Source: Psilocybe azurescens | Taxonomy: Eukaryota > Basidiomycota > Agaricomycetes > Agaricales > Agrocybaceae | NCBI GenBank assembly: GCA_023853785.1 | Contig: JAJIRX010000574.1 | Coordinates: 1-64,000, forward strand | Length of the DNA: 64,000 bases | Direction of reading: 5' to 3' | In this document: piece after piece, positions 27,378-40,942 of the stretch | Layout: each line of letters opens with the position of its first letter | Numbering within the stretch: the first letter of the stretch is position 1 | The notes under the pieces: generated by a model | Told to the model about the DNA's origin: nothing | The model's input: the letters and a program-made list of their open reading frames with translations, nothing else | Databases searched by the model: none | Program-made: the position numbers and the translations under genes

Positions 27378-30300
27378 TCAAAATTGAAAGGAGCGAGGGG
27401 ATATTTTGGTGATTATAGAGCGGATTCTGGGGAAGGTTTTATAGAATTTTGAGGGTTTGGCTGGTGCAGAAAATTCTAGATAGTTCAGAAAAATTTGAGG
27501 GTCGTCTGAAGGCGGCTTTCCGTGACCCTTAGGTAGCAATTCAATTTTTTCTACACCCTGGAGGTCAAGATAAACTTTAGGACTGGTAATTCAACAATGT
27601 TTTCGTAAGGTAGCCATGTAACATCGCCGGCTTTCCATTTTATTTCAAAATGGAGTCTAATCCTTTTCCGAAGTGCGATAGAATTTTATCTACAGCCCAT
27701 TCGGATTCAGGTTGTTCCCCACCACTTATTTGTTCGTCTAATCGGCCGGGAAGAGCCTATCATCGTTGGGGTAATGTATTCTGAGTAGTGATGCATGAAA
27801 CACATCATGTACACCTCGTTGTTTGAGGGAACTGGATAGTTCAAGTCTGTAAGACTGATTGCCAAAGTCTTTTAATATTTTGTATGGTCCAATATACTTA
27901 GGTACTAGCTTTCTAGCAAGTCCCCTAGGGAATGATATATTTTTTGTAGACAGATACACAAGATCTCCTTCACGGAAAGGGGAGATTTGTCTCTTTCGGT
28001 TAGCGTCCCTAGTCTGTTTAACACGCGCTGCAAGAATACTATCATGTGCGGACATGACGGCTAATTTCTTCTGTAATGCGAAGTTTCGAACTGAGGGGTA
28101 TTCAGTTTTGTTCGCCGAGTCCCAAATCATCGGCCGTGGCATTCTTCCATTGTTAAGAAAGAATGGAGCGTATCCGCTACTTTCAGATCTTGCCGAATTA
28201 ATCGCAAACTCGATTCCCGGTAATTTAGATACCCAATCTGTTTGCTTACTATTTACGCACTGCCGCAGCATTTGATTTATTGTTCGATTAGCACGTTCCG
28301 TTGATCCGTCTGTCTGAGGGTGGTACGCGCTCGACATTTTTAATTGTGATCCGATTAATTTATGTAAGTGTGTCCAAAAGATGCTAGTAAACCAGACATC
28401 GCGATCACTGATAATGTTCCTAGGTAATCCATGTAATTTATAGACGTGTTCAAACACAAGTTCTGCAACTTGGCGGGCAGTATAATCTGTCCTACTGGGT
28501 ATCAGATGTACCATGCCTGTTAGTAGACAAATTACTACAGTGATTGCGTCGAAGGCACCATCGCGATTTTTTGATTCCGGGAGGGGTCCGATAAAATCGA
28601 TCCCGATTGACTCCCATGGGGCATTAGGTACCGGAAGTGGGTTCAATAATCCGTAAGGCTTCTGATTACTAGGCTTGCTCCTCTTGCATGTGGAGCATGT
28701 GTCACAGTAGGATTTAGTGTCTGATACTAGATCTTTCCACCAGACTTGATTCCTAAGATAATCTACTGTTTTTGAAGTGCCCAGGTGTGCTAACAGAGAA
28801 TGTGCTTCTGATATTATTATTTCTCTGATGCTTCTGCCTTTCACAAAGATTTTGGGTATGCATAGCAGCTTTATTCCTTTGTCTCTAAGGAACAGTAGCC
28901 CCTTATCTTCTTCAAAATTTCTAAATTCTTTGGGTTCCTTAAAAATTTTACTGAAGAATTGATCTTCATTGTACCTATTACGGATTTCCGTTATGATGTC
29001 AAATCCATTCACTGTTGACGATGCTAAGTCCACCAAGCTTGGCGGCACTTCTCGGTTCTCGCCGATGTCAAGTGGGGCTGATACCTCCGCGTTTTCATCT
29101 CCTTTGGGCAAATTCGTGACTTCCGATTTAGGTAAGTCTGACGAGATTGTCTTCTTCAGTGGAGGGATTCTAATCATTATCTTTTCAGTGGTAGGTTTTG
29201 CCATTTTCTTTGTTTTTGTACCACTCCCGCCCTCCTTTCGCTCTACAGGGGCCTGAGGACGAAATGGTCACGCATTCGGGCCGCCGAACTCACGTAGAAG
29301 TTTCAGGTCTGCCGGATTCAGCAGGTAGATCTTTTTGTTGTTCCGTTTTCGCTGGCCGCACGCGCTTCGATACCCGCTAGGATGGGCATTGCGCCCTCCG
29401 TTACGCCCACGTCCTCGTCTACTACATCGTGGTACGAGTACTCGCTGCGTGCTCGCACTGTTCCAGGTGAGTCATTGGAATATATTCTTGAGAGTGCGTC
29501 TGCTACAACGTTGTCTGTGCCAGGGACGTACAATACTTCAAATTCAAATGAAGATATCTTCTCAATCCAGCGGGCTTGTCTTCCGGACAAATTCTTTTGG
29601 TTTAGTAGGTGTATTAACCCTTTATGATCAGTTACCCATTTGAATTTGACTCCTTGCAGTATGTCTCGATGTCGCGAACATGGTTTCTATGCCCGCAAAC
29701 ATCTCTATTTCGTGAGTAGGGTAATTCTGCTGTGCTGAATTTAGTTTTGCTGAGTAAAATGCGGCTATTTTTGCCGTTTTCCAGTCGTTTCCTTGGCTAA
29801 CAAGCCCAGAAATGCCCGTCGCTGGCATCCGTCTGTCACCATCCAGACAGTCGGTGCGTCTTTCGCATAGTTCAGAGGTGTGCGACGATGTTCCCGTGCG
29901 TTTCCGACTAGACGTTTGACATCTTCGAAAGCCCTTTGTTCAGTATACGTCCATCGAAGGGAACCGTATCACCAGTGAGTGATGTCAATATTCCCATTGG
30001 TATTCTAACACCGGGAACGTCGTCCGCTAGGTACCCTACGGCCGCCCCAAGAAACCTCTCAATAGGTCACGATTTGTCGGCACCTTCCAATTTACAACGG
30101 AATCGACTTTATCTCCGTCCATTCGGATCCCGTTATCATCGATTATTCGCCCTAAAACTTTCAATTCGGGTTGAAGAAACCGAAGTTTACTTTTACTAAG
30201 GTACAGTTTCTCTCTTTTCAAAATGTCTAACACAATTTTTACATGTTTTATGTGTTCTTCAAGCGAATTTGAATAGATCAGGATGTCGTCTAGATAGACA

Positions 30301-31433
30301 TCCATGAATCTTCTCCGATGTAGGGGGGAGAACAAATGGTTCATTAATGTTTGGTAAGTGGCTGGAGCATTGCAGTCTCCTTGTTGCACTACCAGACTAA
30401 CCATATTTCCGTCAGGTGTAGTTACGCCGGTCCTGTGTACGTGAGTCGGTTCAATTCGTGATTTGTTCGTATGCTGACTTTCCGTCCAACGAAGATTTGA
30501 ATTTGTGGCGGGCGACTCTTCGCAGAATTCCTTCGATGTCGGGCAACGGTGATGTTAATTTGTGTGTATTTTTATTACGTTCACGGAGGTCGAACACGGT
30601 GCGTAGTTCTGGCGGTTCGTTCGCTTTTCGAGGCTTTGGTATTAACAACATAGGGACAGTATTCCCTGACGACGTGATTTTCCATCGTCCAGATCTTAGG
30701 TACGCATCATGCTTTTTCTGCCCACTGAGCGCGGAACGCTTCTGGGCATCGAGAGGGACGCCACGGATATGTCTTGTTCTCATCTATCAAAGGTATGGTA
30801 TGGTTTATAGTTCTGAGGGTGGTAGTTCCGTCTCGCTGACGTCTTTGCACAGGGGTTCAGCGTGATTTGCGAAGCGTCTCTCTGGCGTTCTCGATGTCAT
30901 AGTGTACTGGTGCTACAGCGTGTATCATTGGTTTGGTGTCTGCACCTGCTTTCATTGGCAGAGGTATGTCACTTCCTATTATTACTCGAGCAGGGTTTAA
31001 CCCGATACAAACTGAATGCTCGTATAGGAATGGAGTCCCTAGTATCAGGTCATAATGACTTATATTAGCTATATCGAAGGTACGGTTGTTTTTGATATTC
31101 TGATACTCGAACTTAACGATGGTCGACGCATTCACCTTAGAACGCGAACCCTGCACTGCCAGTTGCAAGGTAATTGGTTGTTCAAACTTGTTTTGTTTTA
31201 CTTTAAGCTGATCTGCGAGTGTTGTAGACATGAAATCTCCTAACGATCCCGAAGTCGATAAGTGCCCGAACGGGCTGATCGTTAATTTTTAGCTTCACAA
31301 TAACGGGTTTAGGTAAGTACCGACGCTTATCCTTTAGTGCTGCTGCATTTCTCTGCAGTCCAGGATACGATTTTCGATCGACCTGGACGCCGCACAAGCG
31401 ACATGTATTGTATAGTGGAAAGTTCTTCCACAT
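27378..31433 (-). CDS. pol: Gypsy pol: protease, RT, RNase H, integrase, chromodomain
   Basis: The retroviral-type polyprotein of the element. Protease: VKLKINDQPVRALID then a G-S-L-G run; the active-site triplet reads DFG only because of a frame change near 31256, and one base fewer gives D-S-G. Reverse transcriptase: LRTVFDLRERNKNTHKLTSP, YEQI, QQGDCNAPATYQTLMNHLFS and the catalytic box FMDVYLDDILIYS (about 30290). RNase H: ATGISGLVSQGNDWKTAKIA and HEIEMFAGIET, then YVPGTDNVVADALSRIYSND (about 29500). Integrase: HHCC-type start HSLLAHLGTSKTVDYLR with CDTCSTCKRSK, then the DDE core (IDFIGPLPESKNRDG, ISDRDVWFTS, HPQTDGSTERANRTINQML). The tail has GVHDVFHASLLRIHYPNDD and a chromodomain-like EWAVDKILSHFG with WKAGDVTWLPYENI. 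Frameshifts occur near 27577, 29700 and 30400. Confidence 0.93.
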
Positions 31434-34400
31434 CGTAATCGATACCTTTGGTATGTTTCCGTTTTCTAGATCCCAATAAACGATTTACTAATCCTTTAAT
31501 TTTAGACCATGTGCTTTTGGACGTTGGTACTTCCGATTCAATGGATTCACGCCTTTGTAACTCATATGCGGCGATCTGTGTTTCGTACCAGCTACACACA
31601 TCGAAATTCTTATTGTTTTCAAGGTGAGTTACTGACAATTGCCATTCAATGTCTCGATGTAAGTCTCTCACATCCAGTTTCTTAGGATTGACACTGTTTT
31701 TATTGACTCGGAAATGACCCTCTTCGAGTGGGTCATGATTCAGGTCATCTACTAATGGTGCGTAGTTATTTAATACTGATTCCACATACTTTTCTAATGG
31801 TGTTCCGATAAGTGTTTCGTGAATCGGTTGGGGTTTCAGCCACTCATTGGCTGTCTCGCAAGGGCTTAGGTCATCTAATTCGATGGCACACTGAGCTGCA
31901 TACCAGTGTCCGACGGAGAATTGGTCGTATCGTAGTCTAGACACGTGTAGGTACGATTCGATCCATCTTTTCTTATCGTAGATAATGTATCGGCTGTCGT
32001 CGCCCTTTTCAATATCAAATCTTGATTCTGACTTTATCCATCTTAGTTCATCGTCGCCTGGATACGGCGCACAATTATTGAGAATACGATGAAGTCGTGC
32101 AGCATATGGATCGATCGGTTCATTATTTCCATTTTCTAGTAGGTTCTGAAGTATGGGTTCATATTTATCTGTATCTTCATGGTCTAGGTTGTTGTTCTCC
32201 ATGCTTGTTTCATACATGGAATGTTTTATGTAGTTTTCATTATATAACTGATTTCTTTCCAGTCTTTTGGTGTACCAGTCAACCAGGTTCAGTTGTGGGT
32301 TTTCTAATAGTGATTTTCGAATGTATGTATTTAATTCCAGATCCATATCTTCTATGCAGTATAGTTCGGTACCATCTATAGGGTATATTGAGAAGCGTGC
32401 ATCATCTTCTGTTCGAGGATTGATGGACGGATAGTTGGTTTGAATGCCGTCCCTTAATAGATATATCGGTATCTCCGTGAATGGCTGTCCAAACGGCCAC
32501 CAATTCTTTTGTGATGGGCGAGGTGGAGAGCTCTCGCCCTCCGTTTTGAGTACCATCCTCGGATGTCAAATCTCGAATTTTCGAGATAACTCTTAGGTAT
32601 GTTGATCCTAAAGTTGGTAAGTTCATCCTTAATATGATACATATTCCTTTTGTGGCTTGATTTAATCACTGTAAACCGACCATGTGGCATGTCTATTGAA
32701 TTACCGTAATACTCGTCACCAGGGTACGGTCCTAGCACGTTAAGTAAATAAGATGTGTTCATTATGAACGTGTCCCCTAACGAATTTCGGGGGATAGCAT
32801 CGTATTTCGTTGATCCAAGGGGATCGGCGTTCTCAAAACTGATAGCCCCCAGCGGCATATCTTCTAGTACCTCAACAAATTCACCCGAGGAATCGGACTT
32901 AGTGTCTTCTTCCTGTACAGGTTCTAAATTAAAAGTTGACATTCCAGGTGGCTTACTGCCACTGTGCTTGACTGTGCTTGCTTGTGGGCAATTACGGGAC
33001 ATGTGTCCCTGCTCATTACACCGGAAGCAACGTCCGTTGGCTAGACGTTCAGCCTTTTCCTTTTCGGATAGAGTATTCTTATTATTAAACTCCTTCCTAT
33101 TGTTTTTACCAAACTTGGGGCGATTGGTGCCTTCCCGACTAAAGGATTTACTTCTGTCTTTAGAATAGCGTGATTTATTATTGTATTCGTTGTTTGTTTT
33201 ATGTGATTCTGCATTGTAATTATTTCGAGATCGTGAGTGATCTCGGCGCTTATCTGTGCGCCCCTTGTGTTCACGCGAGGACGATGATTGTTGTCGATCC
33301 TTATTAGGACGTCCGACGCTTTCGGAAATCTCTATGATTTCTGCTTGACTGACAACTTCCTCCCATGTGGAGGAGTCGGGATGTAGGCCGTCGCGCCATA
33401 GTCCACGTTGTATGTAGTCTGCTGCGCCCGTTCCAAAAGCGACTTACTAGGTCACTCTCGGTCATCGATCCAAGAAGATTAAATTGTTCTTCAAGGTAAT
33501 ATATATATTCACTGACCCTTCTGTTGCCTTGGGTAGCATGTTCAAACTTTCTCCTTATTTTTGTCTAAAATCAATGGGGAAACAGTAATTGAATAGTCCA
33601 TTATAAAATGTATTTATGGACATTGTTTCTTCTTGTGTAGCAGCTTTTTGCAAGTAGTAATCATAAGCCTTGCCTTCTAGGAAATAAGATAGGGCAAGAA
33701 TTCGGCGCTTCTTTTGAATCCACTATCTTCTAGGTAAGCTTTACTTTCTTTAACGAAACGATGGTAAGCACGCGGTTCCGCACGACCATCGTATGGGTTC
33801 GGTTTGAAAGCTTTCCTGCAGAGGTATGTTTAGATTTAGTGCGCTTCTTAGTGCGCTTTCTCCTTTGGATTTCCTTTTAGACTCATCCGAGGATGAGGAA
33901 TCACTCGACTCGTCATCCGAACGTTCAGACTTATCTGAATTTGAACTGTCAGATGGTTCATTGCTCGAGTCCGAAGACGAGCTAGTTGTCGACGGATCGT
34001 ATTCCGATGAACTCGAGGGGCTAGGCTCTTTTCTGTCCTTCTTAATATGTTTCTTAGGTCAGCGCTTTTTAAGGCTGTTCCCAGAAATGATTTAGGATTA
34101 ATGTGAGCCACTGGTCTGGCTGAAATGGGCAGCGGACCATTCCTCAATCGAGCTCGATTCGCCGTGTGGTCGAACCTAATGCCTGGAGCCATAGATATAC
34201 TTTCACTAATTATTTGTGTAGCTGGAGTAGCAGACACAATGTTATTATCTTTGGACTTCTTAGCTTTCTTGGCGTCCCTGAACGCCTTCTTTTGAGCCTT
34301 AGGGTTCAATTCCTCATTAGGAATTCCAGCATTGCCCCATTCTCGGGGATCAATGGTTTTCCCTTTATTTTTTGATGTCCCTTCACCGAGAGACTGGGAT

Positions 34401-34517
34401 CGTTCTCGGCGAACTTTCTTATTTCGGCGGGTGATCCGCTCTTTCTCTTCCTTAGTCAGAGATTTCTCGGCTTCTTTGATGACCGAGTCTATTTCGGGTG
34501 AGCTTACAATTGCTCTT
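31434..34517 (-). CDS. gag: Gypsy gag, C-terminal part (capsid, zinc knuckle, linker)
   Basis: This is the part of gag left of the nested transposon. It opens at the insertion with RAIVSSPEIDSVIKEAEKSL and a Lys/Arg-rich region (RRNKKVRRERSQSLG). The capsid-like segment around 33.4-33.8 kb includes KPNPYDGRAEPRAYHRFVKE, LSYFLEGKAYDYYLQKAATQ and RKFEHATQGNRRVSEYIYYL. A CCHC zinc knuckle CFRCNEQGHMSRNC lies at about 33030-32990. A long linker of about 500 residues, rich in Tyr/Asn/Asp, joins it to the protease. Frame changes occur at several points (e.g. near 33450 and 33720). Confidence 0.85.
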
Positions 34518-34525
34518 TTCTTATT
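34518..34525. repeat. 8-bp target duplication, left copy
   Basis: TTCTTATT directly before the element end CAAGGGG; an identical copy lies at 40362-40369. Confidence 0.93.
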
Positions 34526-37500
34526 CAAGGGGTGACTGTAAGTAGCCACGTGATATAGGGTTGGTAGGTAGGTTGGTAGGTGCCTCTTTCTTAATAAAAA
34601 AGACCAGTCACGTTTTTATCACGTTACTATATTTATATGTCATGATTTGGCTGACATTGCAGAGGACGCATCGTGAATTATATCTCCGTTGGTCCAACAA
34701 TGAAGGTCGGTTGCAATGTAAATTACACTGACACACTGATGGGCCATTGCACCTGACTCAGTGTGCCATGGATTATTCTGTATGTTGTAGATTACTGTAG
34801 AAAATCTAACGTGACTTTTGTTCACTTATTTTACTCCCCACTTCATTATCTTAAATCTCTGAAAATACTTGACTATAATGTCGGCCTCTGGCCCACTCTC
34901 AAATACTCCATCCGATAAACCCTCTTATGTCATGCCAACAAAAGTTGGCGCCCGACGGCAGAGTGGAATGTCCGCTCTGCCACGTTCTAATCAAGGTTGG
35001 CACTGGAGGCCTCACCAATCTTGAAGCACGGCACATAAATACCGATAAATGCAAGAAGACACAGCTGAAGAACAAAGAGAATCAGAAGATTGCTGATCAG
35101 AAGGCACAAAGATGAGCATACTTTACATCTGGTGCAAAGAAAATTCCCCCAACTGTTCATGTGCCCTCTCGTATTCAATCTACGCCGTTGCATGCTTCAT
35201 CCTCTATGATACAAGCCAATGCAAACCTATCCAATCAACTCATTACAACTCCTACCACACCTTCATCTCTATTATCACCTTGCCCTCTCGCTATAAGCTG
35301 CCTAAAGAAGCTGTTAGACCAAATCACTATATTGGAAGAAGACCCTACTATTCAAGAGGCTGGCAGTGACCATCCTCTCGCAATTTTTGCTGGAGACCCC
35401 AGAGGATCAGTTGTAGAAGGAGAGGATGCCTGGGAGAAGTGGGATGGGCCACTGAACTCAATTCTTCAGCAAGATGCGGTTAACCTAAGGAAGTTAGTTG
35501 TGCGAGGAGATAAAGGACTTCGAGGCTTTTATCAGTTCATGATTTACCTTGTTAAGGAACATGGAATCCAAGGGTGTTTGATTGAGAACAAGATCAATCG
35601 CATACTGAATGCAATAAACGAAGTGTAAGCTGTCTTTAACTCAGTACATAACACATTTTAAGTGCTTACCTTTGCTTTAGCTCGCCTGCCAGTAGCGCAA
35701 ATCCTTTTCCAAATGTCCTAGCTTATATCGATGTTGATGCACCTCAAAATACCTTACCACTTCCCCCAATGCTAAACAAATCTATTGAGATCGATGTCTT
35801 TCAGCCTGATCCCTCTACGTCTTTGACATCAACTGGTGTAGTGGTCACACAGTGCATAAGAGATTCATCGCAGGTCAAGGGAGATATACCTTGTGTTGGG
35901 TACTACATCAAATTACCTCCCGGAAAATCAGCACATAGCGCATATCCGTTTGGTCTTCATGACAAAATTGGAGATCCGTGGGACTACAGTGTTAGTGGCG
36001 GCAAGCTTACATTGCGTGCACGAGGATGCTTGCAGGCTTCATCAAACACACCTGCAGTTTGTCGAGAATGTGCAATGCTTGAGCACAACCCACACGTTGT
36101 TGGTATTCTGGACCGAATGAAGGACGGCGTGCATCTGAACGCTCCATTTGCATATCATGGTGTTGGAGGGTTGATTAAAATTGCAAGAGAGAAATCAAAT
36201 CGGATTGTTTCCCTACGCTTACGGAAGCTTAACGATGCTAGGAAGATATTATCGAAGTCTGGTGCATTGGATAGTCATAAAGAGTGGCTTATGGCTGTAG
36301 GGAGTGGAAGTGTTGAGCGTGTTGAGCGGCTTGTAAAAGAGCAATTTCGCAAAGAAGTGGTATACGTGCCCTTATCAAGATGCACAACGATGCAGCAGGA
36401 GCCGTGTATCGCACTCGTACATTTTCCGAGGAGGACATACACAGAGGCCTACTTCTATGGAGGTTAGGAGGTGCTCGTGTCGCTGAAATTTCCTTCAAGT
36501 CACTTGCCTTGCCATCGTTACGGACACTCCGTCGAAGCTCTGTTATGCCTCCTCTCACAGCCTCACCTGGTCATCCCACGGTCCCTGAAATTGAGGCAAA
36601 TACCAGAGCATCAATGAAAATGATCAAGGACCTTGTGAAGTTGTCAAAAGTCGTCCACCAGGTTCTGGCATTTGATGAAGCAAAGACTGATGAAAGACCA
36701 CGGTGGGATGATCGAACGAACCAGATCATTGGTTTATGTCGCGAGCACGCATCATCTGCTAGTCTCACTTTCACGTCGAAGCAGGAAGCAGACTATCTCT
36801 ATGAGAAAATAGTTGATGGAAGTGTTCATCTTGCCACTAACGTAAGATCATTTATTTTTAAATTGTTTAATCTTATCTAATTCAAACTTTGAATATTAGT
36901 GCACAATTGGTGCCATTGGTATTATGAGCAGTGAGCACCGTCTATACAATGCTCTTCCGGTTCTTATATCTGGACAGTGTGGTCGTGAATCAGGAAGTGA
37001 ACATGCTACAGTTCTAAGCAATGTGATTGAAGCTTCCAAAGTCTCAAACTTACGGACTATTTGCCTTGCCTCTGACGGCAAATCACGGCGAGGACAGGCA
37101 TTTGCTATCTTAACATTCAAACACAAGCTCAAAGAATCTTCCCCAATTTATCCTCTCCTCTCAGGGCTTCGCTTTATGAATCTTGAGGTGGGTGAAGATG
37201 ACTTGACTTGTGACAAGGACTACAAGCATGTTTTCAAACGACTTCGTAATTTGCTTCTTCGCATCCGTGGATTAAAAATACATGGAATTCACATCCTACC
37301 ATCTGTAATCCGCTCGCACCTTCTGCAAAACAATGTTCCCCTCTCGCACGTTAAAAACATTCTGAAGCCAGAAGATAAACAGGATGTGAAGCTTGCCTAT
37401 GATCTATTCGCGAGAGGTATCTCGTCTCCCTTCCCTTCTTGGAACAGATATTCGAGGCCCAGGATTCCAAGACACCCGGGAAGCATTTCGAACACTAGGC

Positions 37501-40361
37501 ATCTTCTTCCAGAACATTATTTTACCTTATATATGCATCGATCTCTCCCTTACCGAGCAGCTGATATATCTCAGTACTGCGGCACATATTCTCCTTGCAA
37601 TGGCACACGAAGACCTTGCCGGAACATTCTTAATGCCAACACAATTATACATCGATCTGATGATTATGATTAAGAATGTATACTTCTGTGTTGCAAAGAC
37701 ACAAATAGACGATCCGACAGGGCGATTTTATCTTATACTCTTGGGAACAGATCGACTTGAGGAGCTGTTTGGAATTGTTCGGACAATGGTTGGGACTGAC
37801 TCAAGTGTCGATGTCCACCAGCTTGCTCTCCGACTAGTGGGGACCACTGAAGTATCAAGCATTCTGGCACAACACCCTGAATGGGATCGTGCCCCCGACG
37901 TCTCAAGCTTCCAACATTATCCAAAGACGGCCTCGAGATCTTCAAAGAAGTTGACCACATTAAGCCATCATCCTGGAGAGGCAATCTTGACGTTGACAAG
38001 GTCAATCTCCAGACATGCTGGATGGTTGGACGTGCATCAATTAAACACACAATCCCTCGTCTTGACCCAGGTTTTGCAAAAAATTGAAGCTCAGAAACTT
38101 GACTCGTCGCTTGATATGCTTCAACCATTTGGCAAGCATATTGTCAATTCAAATCGCGAACAAGATGACTATGATGATACAGCTGAGGATTTTGAAGACG
38201 GAAACTTGGAAGCAAGCCCTGCTGCTACGCAAGACTGTACCCGAGCAGTATTTACAGACTTGGAAGATCTGGCAGGAGAGGATGAGCCGGTTGACAGATA
38301 CGATCCGTGCTTCAAGTATGAAGGGAAGCAGATTTTCAAAGCTCGCTATCTCAAGGAATTGTTCAGATCATTCAAGGATCCCGGTTCTCGAGATCGTCTC
38401 AAACGCTACGCTAATATTCCACGATATGCAATCAAAAACTTGCAATCCGGTGATGTTATTCAATCGGATGCCGAGAATTCTCATACACCTTCGATAAAAC
38501 TGGATTCCCGATAGCTACCCTTATGAAATGCGAAGGACGTCTATTTGTGTGTATTGGAGAGGTTATCGAATTGACTTTCGATTCAAAATCCCTTGACCAC
38601 ATACCGATTCATCGCCTCTCAGAACCATCAACTTTTATTCAGTTCCAGCTTCTATATTTGATTCCATCTACTGTTGAGGATGACAGCGAGCTCAAGAATG
38701 ACTGGCGTTGGTCAAATAAGCGTGGATCATCTCATCGAATTCCAGGACATCTTGTTGAGTCAGTTAACCCAGATATTTCAACCCAGAAAGCTGGGAACCC
38801 ATACTATCTTTTGATAGCCAGAGTCTTCAAGCAATTGGATCAATTCTTTTGAATGTCTCACTCGAGAAGACAGTAAAAGCATTCCTGAGACTAGGCAGTC
38901 TCTTTGCTTTCCTATCGTGAATCCACAGGTTTGTTCGCTTTACTCAACGGTCTAGTTTATAATACTAACCAATCATTGTGAAGGGAAAGCCTGTTTTGTT
39001 TGCGAGGACGAGGAGAAAGAAGACGAATTATTATCGAAGAAACAGTGTCCTTATTGCCTTGTCACCCTTCCAAAATCTGGACAGAAAGTACTGCAGCACA
39101 TGGCCGCCCACATTCATTATGATCCTGCAGTACAAAAGTCAAAGGAGCCATGCGGGCTCTGTCTACAGTATGACCAATGCACTATATACCTAATGAAAGG
39201 AAAGGGTGCAAATGCATCGCCAAAGATAGACAAAAAAGCTCAAAATGCACTGGCCTAATCGACTTTAACTACACGACTGCTGCGACTTCCACCGCTGCAA
39301 GCCCATGCTCAAACGTTCCCTTGAAATGCCCACTATGTCCATCGTCTTCAACAGCAGTCTGGCGCTATAATCTGTGTATACATATCCAGTCCTCACATCC
39401 TTACGCAGATCTTTTGGGACCACGAGCCCTTGTGGAAGATTACGAACACAGAGAAAAAGACTGTTAAAGGAGGTTTGGGACACACGTTTAGAAGCCAAAA
39501 ACACGAACACGTACCTCAAAGAATACTCAAGGTGCACCTCTTATTATCTCGGAAGCCCACAGCTCTCGACTAACGTTGAGGTAAGCCTTATGTGATTATC
39601 ACTATGAGTCTGGACTCATAATAACATTGCCTTCTATCAGGAATGAGACCGACAAACTTAAAGAATTGTCTGAATCAGATAAGTCAGAATCCGAAGATTC
39701 AGATGGGAACTTTGAACCTCAAGAGGATCACGATAACCTCCAGGACATCAGTGCTAATGTCGCACCTATCCAAACAGATTCTCGCCATGTGATAGAGCCT
39801 GAAAATGCGCAACTAATTACCCACACCCCGATGATTCCGATAGATGCTACTGTTGGAGCTAATGTCAGCCAATCCGAAGATGCAGAGATGATTTCACATA
39901 CTCGCAAACGAAGGGCACCTACCACAATCTACGACTGTATTTGTGGGGAAGTTATCTCTTCGGATGAGACCTCAAAACCAGACTTGGTGATTGAATGTCA
40001 GCAACGAGGTTGCTAAACAAAATGGGTCAGTAAATAGCTGTTCCCTCACTGGCATTAAATTACTCACTTGTTTTTTGTAGTTCCACCTTGCTTGTGCAGA
40101 TCTTGAGTATGTGATACCTAGATGGAAATGTAAGTCATGCGAGCCTCGAAAGATAAAGAAACGCAAAGGAATGGTGTAGTAATAGGTAGATACAACAGTT
40201 GTACAACAAGTCGACGACGATACACTCGGTACAATGACTAATAGGGTAATAAATTGAGACAACGTGACTTTCACGTGCCTTAGGTAGGTAGGTTAGTGGT
40301 ATTGAGAGTGTTAAAAAAAAATCGACCCCATGTCTGATTTTTTTTTAGTGTCACCCCCTTG
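34526..40361 (+). mobile_element. undescribed DNA transposon with zinc-finger/PHD ORF, nested in gag
   Basis: The element is 5836 bp. Left end: CAAGGGGTGACTGTAAGTAG. Right end read inward: CAAGGGGGTGACACTAAAAA. The shared inverted terminus is therefore CAAGGGG(G)TGAC, 11-12 bp. Perfect 8-bp duplications flank it. Gag reading resumes across it (N-terminus at 40370-40720, remainder from 34517), which proves insertion into an existing Gypsy element. Both ends carry a CACGTGA word and GGTAGGTAGGTT-like tracts just inside. It encodes one large plus-strand gene. An 8-bp duplication is known for hAT, P and KDZ superfamilies. Confidence 0.93.
34878..40179 (+). CDS. transposase candidate: C2HC finger, RNase-H-like motifs, C2H2 and PHD fingers
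   Basis: This is the only long gene of the nested element. The N-terminus has MSASGPLSNTPSDKPSYV, then a BED/C2HC-like finger with DGRVECPLCHVLI and HINTDKCKK. The middle part has CVGYYIKLPPGKSAHSAYPF, VCRECAMLEHNPHVVGILDR and a conserved WRLGGARVAEISFKSLALPS. Three acidic motifs fit a D-D-E triad: LAFDEAKTDERPRWDD (D at 36674), ICLASDGKSRRGQA (D at 37074) and LLGTDRLEELFGIVRTM (E at 37759). The C-terminal part has GKSCFVC-type pairs read here as VCED and CPYC with HMAAH, a C2H2 finger CPLCPSSSTAVWRYNL, and a PHD finger built from YDCICGE, CQQRGC and FHLACAD with WKCKSC. At least three introns and several frameshifts (near 34955, 37405, 37900 and 38990) are present. The family is common as an unnamed multi-copy protein in mushroom genomes, to my knowledge without an assigned transposase domain. 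Confidence 0.8.
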
Positions 40362-40369
40362 TTCTTATT
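40362..40369. repeat. 8-bp target duplication, right copy
   Basis: TTCTTATT immediately after the right end CCCCCTTG; identical to 34518-34525. Confidence 0.93.
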
Positions 40370-40720
40370 AGCATGCTTTTTAAATTCTTTAATAGAATTC
40401 TTACGGCGAGAGCTCTTGCTCTGCACGGTGGTCCATGGACCCTGACCATCATTCTCATCAGAAGAAGAGGTGTAATTATTATCTATTTCCATAGTATTAT
40501 CAACTACTGGAAGCCCAAGGGTGTCATCGCGAATAAAATTGTTCTCTTCTGATGCCTGATGATAAACAGGAGGCGGAGAATCAATCTCCTTCTCTTCATC
40601 AACGGAAGGAGAAGGGGGTCTCGATGCCACGACGTCACTGTAAGTGCGCCCTGGGTGTGTGAACATCGGCTGCGTCCGAATCGAGGTTCGGAAAGACTGG
40701 GGATGGCGACCGTTGGTCAT
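40370..40720 (-). CDS. gag: Gypsy gag, N-terminal part cut by insertion
   Basis: The ATG at 40720 starts MTNGRHPQSFRTSIRTQPMF, followed by HPGRTYSDVVASRPPSPSVD and GPWTTVQSKSSRRKNSIKEF, a typical N-terminus of basidiomycete Gypsy gag. Reading is broken at the 8-bp duplication and continues at 34517. An in-frame extension upstream to 40822 exists but lacks similarity I know. Confidence 0.85.
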
Positions 40721-40942
40721 CCGGATCAACAGCGGGAACGGGAACGAAGGGTATACCTGGGAGTCATAGTTTTTAGTTAATAAAATTTTTGAATGTTTAC
40801 GTACTGGTTTTATAAATTGCAAAGGGGAAGGGTTGGCTGTCTTGAAGTGGAGGGCTCTGGTTGATCAGACCGGAGTGTACCAAACGTCGAAGACGGCGGG
40901 GGAGAGTAGAGAGATAAAAAGTAGAGGGTACTGTCAAAAATA

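Follow-up and report, generated by a model that had tools for sequence, protein, structure and literature searches.

The stretch of DNA analysed here (the window) comprises 64,000 nucleotides of Psilocybe azurescens, positions 1 to 64,000 of contig JAJIRX010000574.1, and carries at 34526-40361 an element that lies inside a retrotransposon. We consider it highly probable that this element is a DNA transposon with a single gene, the product of which is a predicted P-superfamily transposase, likely to cut at the CAAGGGG ends and to reinsert with an 8-bp staggered cut. An earlier note on this DNA had placed the element at these coordinates, between exact 8-bp duplications and with inverted CAAGGGG(G)TGAC ends, and both claims were borne out by the features that delimit it:

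34526-40361, plus strand: whole transposon, 5,836 bp, defined by its ends, its duplication and a second copy with other flanks.
34518-34525, no strand: left target duplication TTCTTATT, from sequence comparison of the flanks.
40362-40369, no strand: right target duplication TTCTTATT, an exact 8-bp match to the left one.
34526-34536, plus strand: left inverted end CAAGGGGTGAC, from end-motif reading.
40350-40361, minus strand: right inverted end GTCACCCCCTTG, from end-motif reading.

The left end CAAGGGGTGAC differs by one G from the inverse of CAAGGGGGTGAC at the right, and the length of the G run varies by one base both between ends and between copies. Genome-wide, CAAGGGGTGAC occurs 30 times, against 24 occurrences of the reversed control, and by itself the end motif is weak evidence.

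The insertion site lies within a Ty3/gypsy-type retrotransposon on the minus strand, the interrupted parts of which span 27738-34549 and 40280-40822. Pfam scanning located a reverse transcriptase piece of this retrotransposon at 30036-30404, and its integrase zinc-binding and Tf2-1-like SH3 domains lie at 27738-29204. When the flanks were joined by script with a single TTCTTATT, one open reading frame (ORF) of 132 residues spanned the site. The rejoining of an interrupted gag, as claimed before, thus stands as far as the frame is concerned, but the label gag comes from position only, the ORF at 33848-34549 having no Pfam match. The search for empty sites was also successful: five other copies of the retrotransposon align with positions 5-400 of the joined 400 bases at 81-83% identity and represent element-free sites, with the eight target bases diverged in both of the two copies inspected. 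The joined flank matches 40 further genomic stretches, and some of these are fragments of a single locus.

The element in the window, labelled C484, was compared with the whole genome (70.4 Mb in 937 contigs). The genome comparison, of the kind proposed by the earlier note, recovered a second full-length copy, C483:39124-44960, with ends of the same kind and 99.6% identity over 5,847 columns. It is the sole match when 1.5 kb of flank per side is included in the comparison; its flanks are unrelated, and it has its own, different and exact 8-bp duplication, GATGTATA. A diverged relative, C542, measures 5,964 bp, is flanked by the duplication TGTTCAAT, has CAAGGGG(G)TGCCGGGATC ends and encodes the same protein family. 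Two other elements with C484-type ends are C236 (706 bp, duplication GTTATTCC) and C884 (3,536 bp, duplication ACCAACCC). C542, C884 and C236 were first found by a scan that required near-matching duplications, and the same pairs were also listed by end patterns alone. Another 20 inward-facing end pairs were picked by eye from the pattern listings before their flanks were inspected, and 17 of these 20 have exact 8-bp duplications. Overall, exact duplications flank 22 of the 25 end pairs when scored by script, compared with 0 of 380 mispaired-flank controls, the best of which has two mismatches. No exact duplication was found for C153 (2 mismatches) and C438 (5 mismatches), and that of C270a is exact only with its right end taken as a variant. 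Chance is ruled out by the second copy, with its unrelated surroundings and separate duplication, and by the 22 exact pairs of 25 against none of the 380 mispaired ones.

Among the 22 exact pairs, ends like those of C542 are the most frequent (13), followed by those of the C484 type (5) and by a third type, CAAGGGG(G)TACC (4). Most are short (16 of about 0.47-0.80 kb), and the others measure 2.75 kb (C878), 3.5 kb (C884), 5.8-6.0 kb (three elements) and 9.0 kb (C510). The third-type elements, C92:121321-121805, C680:71717-72195, C834:14146-14615 and C875:16848-17316, all have exact 8-bp duplications and no protein-bearing partner assigned to them. At C510:210521-219546, 9.0 kb lie between paired ends whose duplication, ATTAAAAT, is exact; near the right end the N-terminal exon of the gene is matched in an unexpected orientation, and this is perhaps a rearranged or nested element. 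At C470:797760-799316 two short C542-type elements lie about 65 bases apart, each with an exact duplication. The earlier note had named copies of the protein without such ends as a possible refutation; gene fragments at C157, C698 and C471 have no convincing ends within the stretches inspected, and C809 and C716 each have a single end for which no partner was found.

Residues 14-1286 of the relative P0039 match most of the element as exon-like segments in order and in changing frames, which we read as one spliced, frame-broken gene. The earlier note had described an only long gene; there is indeed one long gene, but only when introns and one-base frame breaks are allowed. Between C484 and C483 there are 11 substitutions and 13 gap openings, and because many of the gaps are single-base, some of the frame breaks could be assembly errors. 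As assembled, the copy in the window is frame-broken and, judged from its sequence, probably itself inactive. Between the C484 and C542 lineages, part of the core shows differences at 73, 48 and 116 of 167 first, second and third codon positions, respectively, and this excess at the third position is expected under protein constraint.

Protein searches returned 38 relatives with a 249-residue piece and 189 with the read-through. For the latter, 120 of 189 are listed, under shortened names, and the search was limited to candidates sharing exact words. These 120 are annotated as hypothetical, uncharacterized or predicted proteins, some as PHD-type zinc finger domain-containing and one as a retrotransposon gag domain; the word transposase is absent from their names as shortened. 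Their organisms include Galerina, Pleurotus, Auricularia, Laccaria, Mycena and Lactarius, which we take to be Agaricomycetes, and several have more than one entry. Pfam scans of the ORF pieces in the window gave no informative family for the element, tblastn against plasmids gave no match, and Rfam gave none within the window. The tie between this unnamed family and mobility, first drawn in the earlier note, is strengthened by the fact that C484/C483 and C542 both combine the protein with CAAGGGG-type ends and exact 8-bp duplications.

Along the protein, the following motifs and domains were located:

34966-35052, plus strand: BED-like zinc finger, C-x2-C ... H-x5-C, predicted to bind DNA, by sequence pattern.
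36668-36712, plus strand: first catalytic aspartate motif AFDEAKTDERPRWDD, aligned with P D230, by profile alignment.
37065-37094, plus strand: second catalytic aspartate motif LASDGKSRRG, aligned with P D303, by profile alignment.
37209-37250, plus strand: D-x2-H motif after strand 5, CDKDYKHVFKRLRN, aligned with P D339/H342, by profile alignment.
37744-37794, plus strand: catalytic glutamate motif GTDRLEELFGIVRTMVG, aligned with P D528 and E531, by profile alignment.
39040-39120, plus strand: C2H2-like zinc-finger stretch, by sequence, not scored by Pfam.
39321-39398, plus strand: second C2H2-like zinc-finger stretch, by sequence; the relative P0047 has a weak Pfam C2H2 match (E 0.2).
39924-40013, plus strand: first half of a PHD-like finger, C-x-C ... 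C-x4-C, by sequence pattern.
40081-40152, plus strand: second half of the PHD-like finger, H-x2-C ... C-x2-C, after a predicted intron, by sequence pattern.

The BED-like pattern occurs within the first 130 residues of 47 of the 120 listed relatives, compared with 6 of 2,400 shuffles, and Pfam zf-BED gave only a weak match (E 0.2), in one of the 12 relatives scanned. Of the 31 relatives with 1,550 residues or more, 9 have the PHD-like pattern, against 0 of 620 shuffles, and P0091 matches the PHD-like model PF23011 with an E of 2.3e-5, slightly under the curated cut-off. Relatives without the BED-like or PHD-like pattern may be truncated, mis-modelled or missed by the strict pattern. The gene had been presented before as a zinc-finger/PHD ORF; the fingers are present, but that description undersold it, as they are joined to a core alignable with the transposases of the P superfamily. 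After the catalytic core, at 38502-38852 of the window, lies another conserved stretch (Q49, D67-W68, P90 and L109 of alignment A3).

The alignment of the family core with P-type transposases was obtained by profile-profile comparison. Among the rows that have a letter, the residue of the aspartate-aspartate-glutamate (DDE) triad of P is found in 87 of 88 at D230, in 94 of 96 at D303 and in 92 of 95 at E531. In the predicted structure, strand 5 (701-704) is followed immediately by a [C/D](2)H motif, with D705 in 95 of 96 rows and H708 in 96 of 96, which is a signature of the P superfamily according to the available part of PMC8230255. Between this strand and helix 4 (878-891) lies a mainly helical insertion. 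The best match of the predicted structure is the P transposase, with 6p5a aligned over 445-915, followed by RAG and Transib; chains missing from the VIA list were given no negative weight. The 8-bp target duplications, exact at 22 of 25 end pairs, are likewise a trait of the P superfamily. By its catalytic signature, as read from the aligned sequences, the family goes with the P superfamily.

Several observations weigh against this assignment. The structure was predicted for the relative P0082 (39% identity over 92% of the query) and not for the copy in the window, and the column of E531 holds K in 3 of 95 rows. The hidden Markov model comparison with Pfam, which the earlier note had proposed, was run and gave P-type rows below the cut-off only: in the 12 relatives PF21787 appears below the cut-off in 8 and is absent from 4, and genome-wide the best rows have E of 0.296 and 0.601. 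This cut-off is a mark of sensitivity rather than a defining trait of the P superfamily. Searching the PDB with the family sequence profile returned chance hits only and not the P structure, so the link to P rests on the profile-profile and fold comparisons. A THAP row is absent from the Pfam scans of the 12 relatives, with the BED-like finger in its place. In addition, the ends are hAT-like in appearance, and 7 of the 22 duplications fit the hAT pattern.

The cofactor site also departs from that of P. The eight contacts of P with guanosine triphosphate (GTP) are K385, K400, V401, S409, F443, D444, N447 and D528, as given in the accessible text of PMC7776569. In the present family V401 and D528 are conserved and the position of F443 holds F or L, while the other five, K385, K400, S409, D444 and N447, are replaced by mostly G, D, K/R, Y/R and H, respectively, in an alignment that is less certain in the insertion than in the core. 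At the place of K400, D is found in 91 of 94 rows. The Drosophila-type P family is further characterised by its need for GTP and by cleavage with a 17-nt stagger. Since most of the contacts are replaced, we predict that GTP use is altered or absent; the same replacements, together with the failure to find THAP, place the family, on present alignments, outside the Drosophila-type P family.

Among the alternatives, the one that survives best is that the same lineage already has a place in a catalogue, perhaps among unpublished Repbase entries or together with rust P elements such as P-1_MLP and P-1_PSt. In 2011, elements of the P superfamily with duplications of 8 bp were described from Puccinia and Melampsora, having previously been unknown in any Dikarya, as stated in the part of PMC3164196 that was available. 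Rust names are none among the 120 of 189 relatives listed, all drawn from exact-word candidates, and we regard this alternative as somewhat unlikely. The available portions of PMC12730594, PMC8290104, PMC6416283, PMC5791352 and PMC9017028 do not report P in fungi, PMC3164196 alone doing so, and that of PMC5791352 calls the superfamily mostly restricted to Drosophila. Literature searches, with Repbase and Dfam lying outside them, found no published report of the present lineage. The element had been called undescribed, which holds for the lineage in the literature searched, but fungal P elements with 8-bp duplications have been known since the 2011 report; the present element is therefore counted as a variant and not as the first fungal P.

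Slightly less likely again is a separate superfamily, sister to P, that would share the RNase H core and the insertion through older descent. The larger protein and the missing THAP are in keeping with it, as is the position of RAG and Transib as the next structural matches. The lack of any P-type Pfam pass in the genome and the replacement of most GTP contacts raise its odds and lower those of a P-superfamily transposase.

A hAT or KDZ transposon, its ends cut by a transposase made elsewhere and the gene a passenger, is improbable. Both 8-bp duplications and CAAGGGG ends resemble those of hAT and KDZ elements, which share the duplication length and have similar-looking end bases. A hAT transposase is characterised by the hAT fold and a C-terminal dimerisation domain. 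The hAT target-duplication pattern is nTnnnnAn, 14 of the 22 duplications have T as their second base, and KDZ genes are abundant, with at least 170 domain matches genome-wide. The KDZ model PF18758 gave no row in the Pfam scans of 12 relatives, and none of the genome-wide KDZ matches listed lies inside the elements, so that the case of a KDZ transposon with cargo, raised earlier as a possible refutation, was not borne out. This candidate was judged unlikely on three grounds: the fold, the outcome of the KDZ scan, and the presence of the gene in two diverged elements. Finally, an immobile host gene between chance repeats can practically be dismissed: PHD and zinc fingers do occur in chromatin proteins and the listed relatives have no transposase name, but the second copy with its own duplication contradicts it, the interrupted retrotransposon frame rejoins, and the core is transposase-like.

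Returning to the P-superfamily reading, the element is likely an autonomous transposon, the copy in the window being frame-broken as assembled. Taking insertion footprints, family conservation and the predicted fold as the observed basis, we infer the roles in end binding, cutting, cofactor use and PHD function as follows. The BED-like finger and the helical N-terminal part would bind the ends, where P uses its THAP and helix-turn-helix domains, and the transposase would then pair the bound ends. The two aspartates and the glutamate (FDE, SDG, TDRLE) would hold two metal ions, cleavage and strand transfer proceeding as in P, and insertion would occur with an 8-bp stagger. The mainly helical insertion occupies the site of the GTP-binding domain of P, and GTP binding would probably be altered or absent. 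By reading chromatin, the PHD finger may guide integration or regulation, and the transposase of the gene family would mobilise the short elements in trans.

More tentatively, and with the odds somewhat against it, these proteins may represent an extensive and unrecognised P-superfamily branch in mushroom-forming fungi, filed as hypothetical proteins, with BED in place of THAP, a chromatin-reading PHD finger and the GTP cofactor abandoned. P is described as unique among transposases in its use of this cofactor in the available text of PMC7776569, and a P-fold enzyme with most GTP contacts replaced would allow a superfamily-wide role of GTP to be tested against a role in one branch. If the assignment is true, a function would be given to a common unnamed protein family of Agaricomycetes, and a P-type transposase would be placed far from the animal forms studied so far. 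The near-identical copies and many short derivatives with clean duplications would be material for a fungal transposition system.

Among known systems, Transib and RAG1 have structural scores far below that of P, and their target duplications are 5 bp. The rust elements P-1_PSt, P-1_MLP and P-2_MLP of Repbase are likened by description only, having in common the P superfamily, the 8-bp duplications and a host in Basidiomycota (PMC3164196, available part). THAP9 and the zebrafish P-like elements share the 8-bp duplications, short inverted ends (theirs of 13 bp) and, in zebrafish, internally deleted relatives, and differ in their THAP domain, stated to be animal-restricted (PMC7776569, in the text available); the same triad and D-x2-H motif are found in them (PMC8230255, likewise). 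The Drosophila P element (6p5a, 6pe2) is the best structural match and has in common the 8-bp duplications, the DDE triad, D-x2-H after strand 5 and a helical insertion between strand 5 and helix 4. In contrast to it, the present element has a BED-like finger for THAP, additional C2H2 and PHD fingers and five of eight GTP contacts replaced; its ends are 11-12 bp, whereas those of P are 31 bp, and it is about twice as long as the 2.9-kb P.
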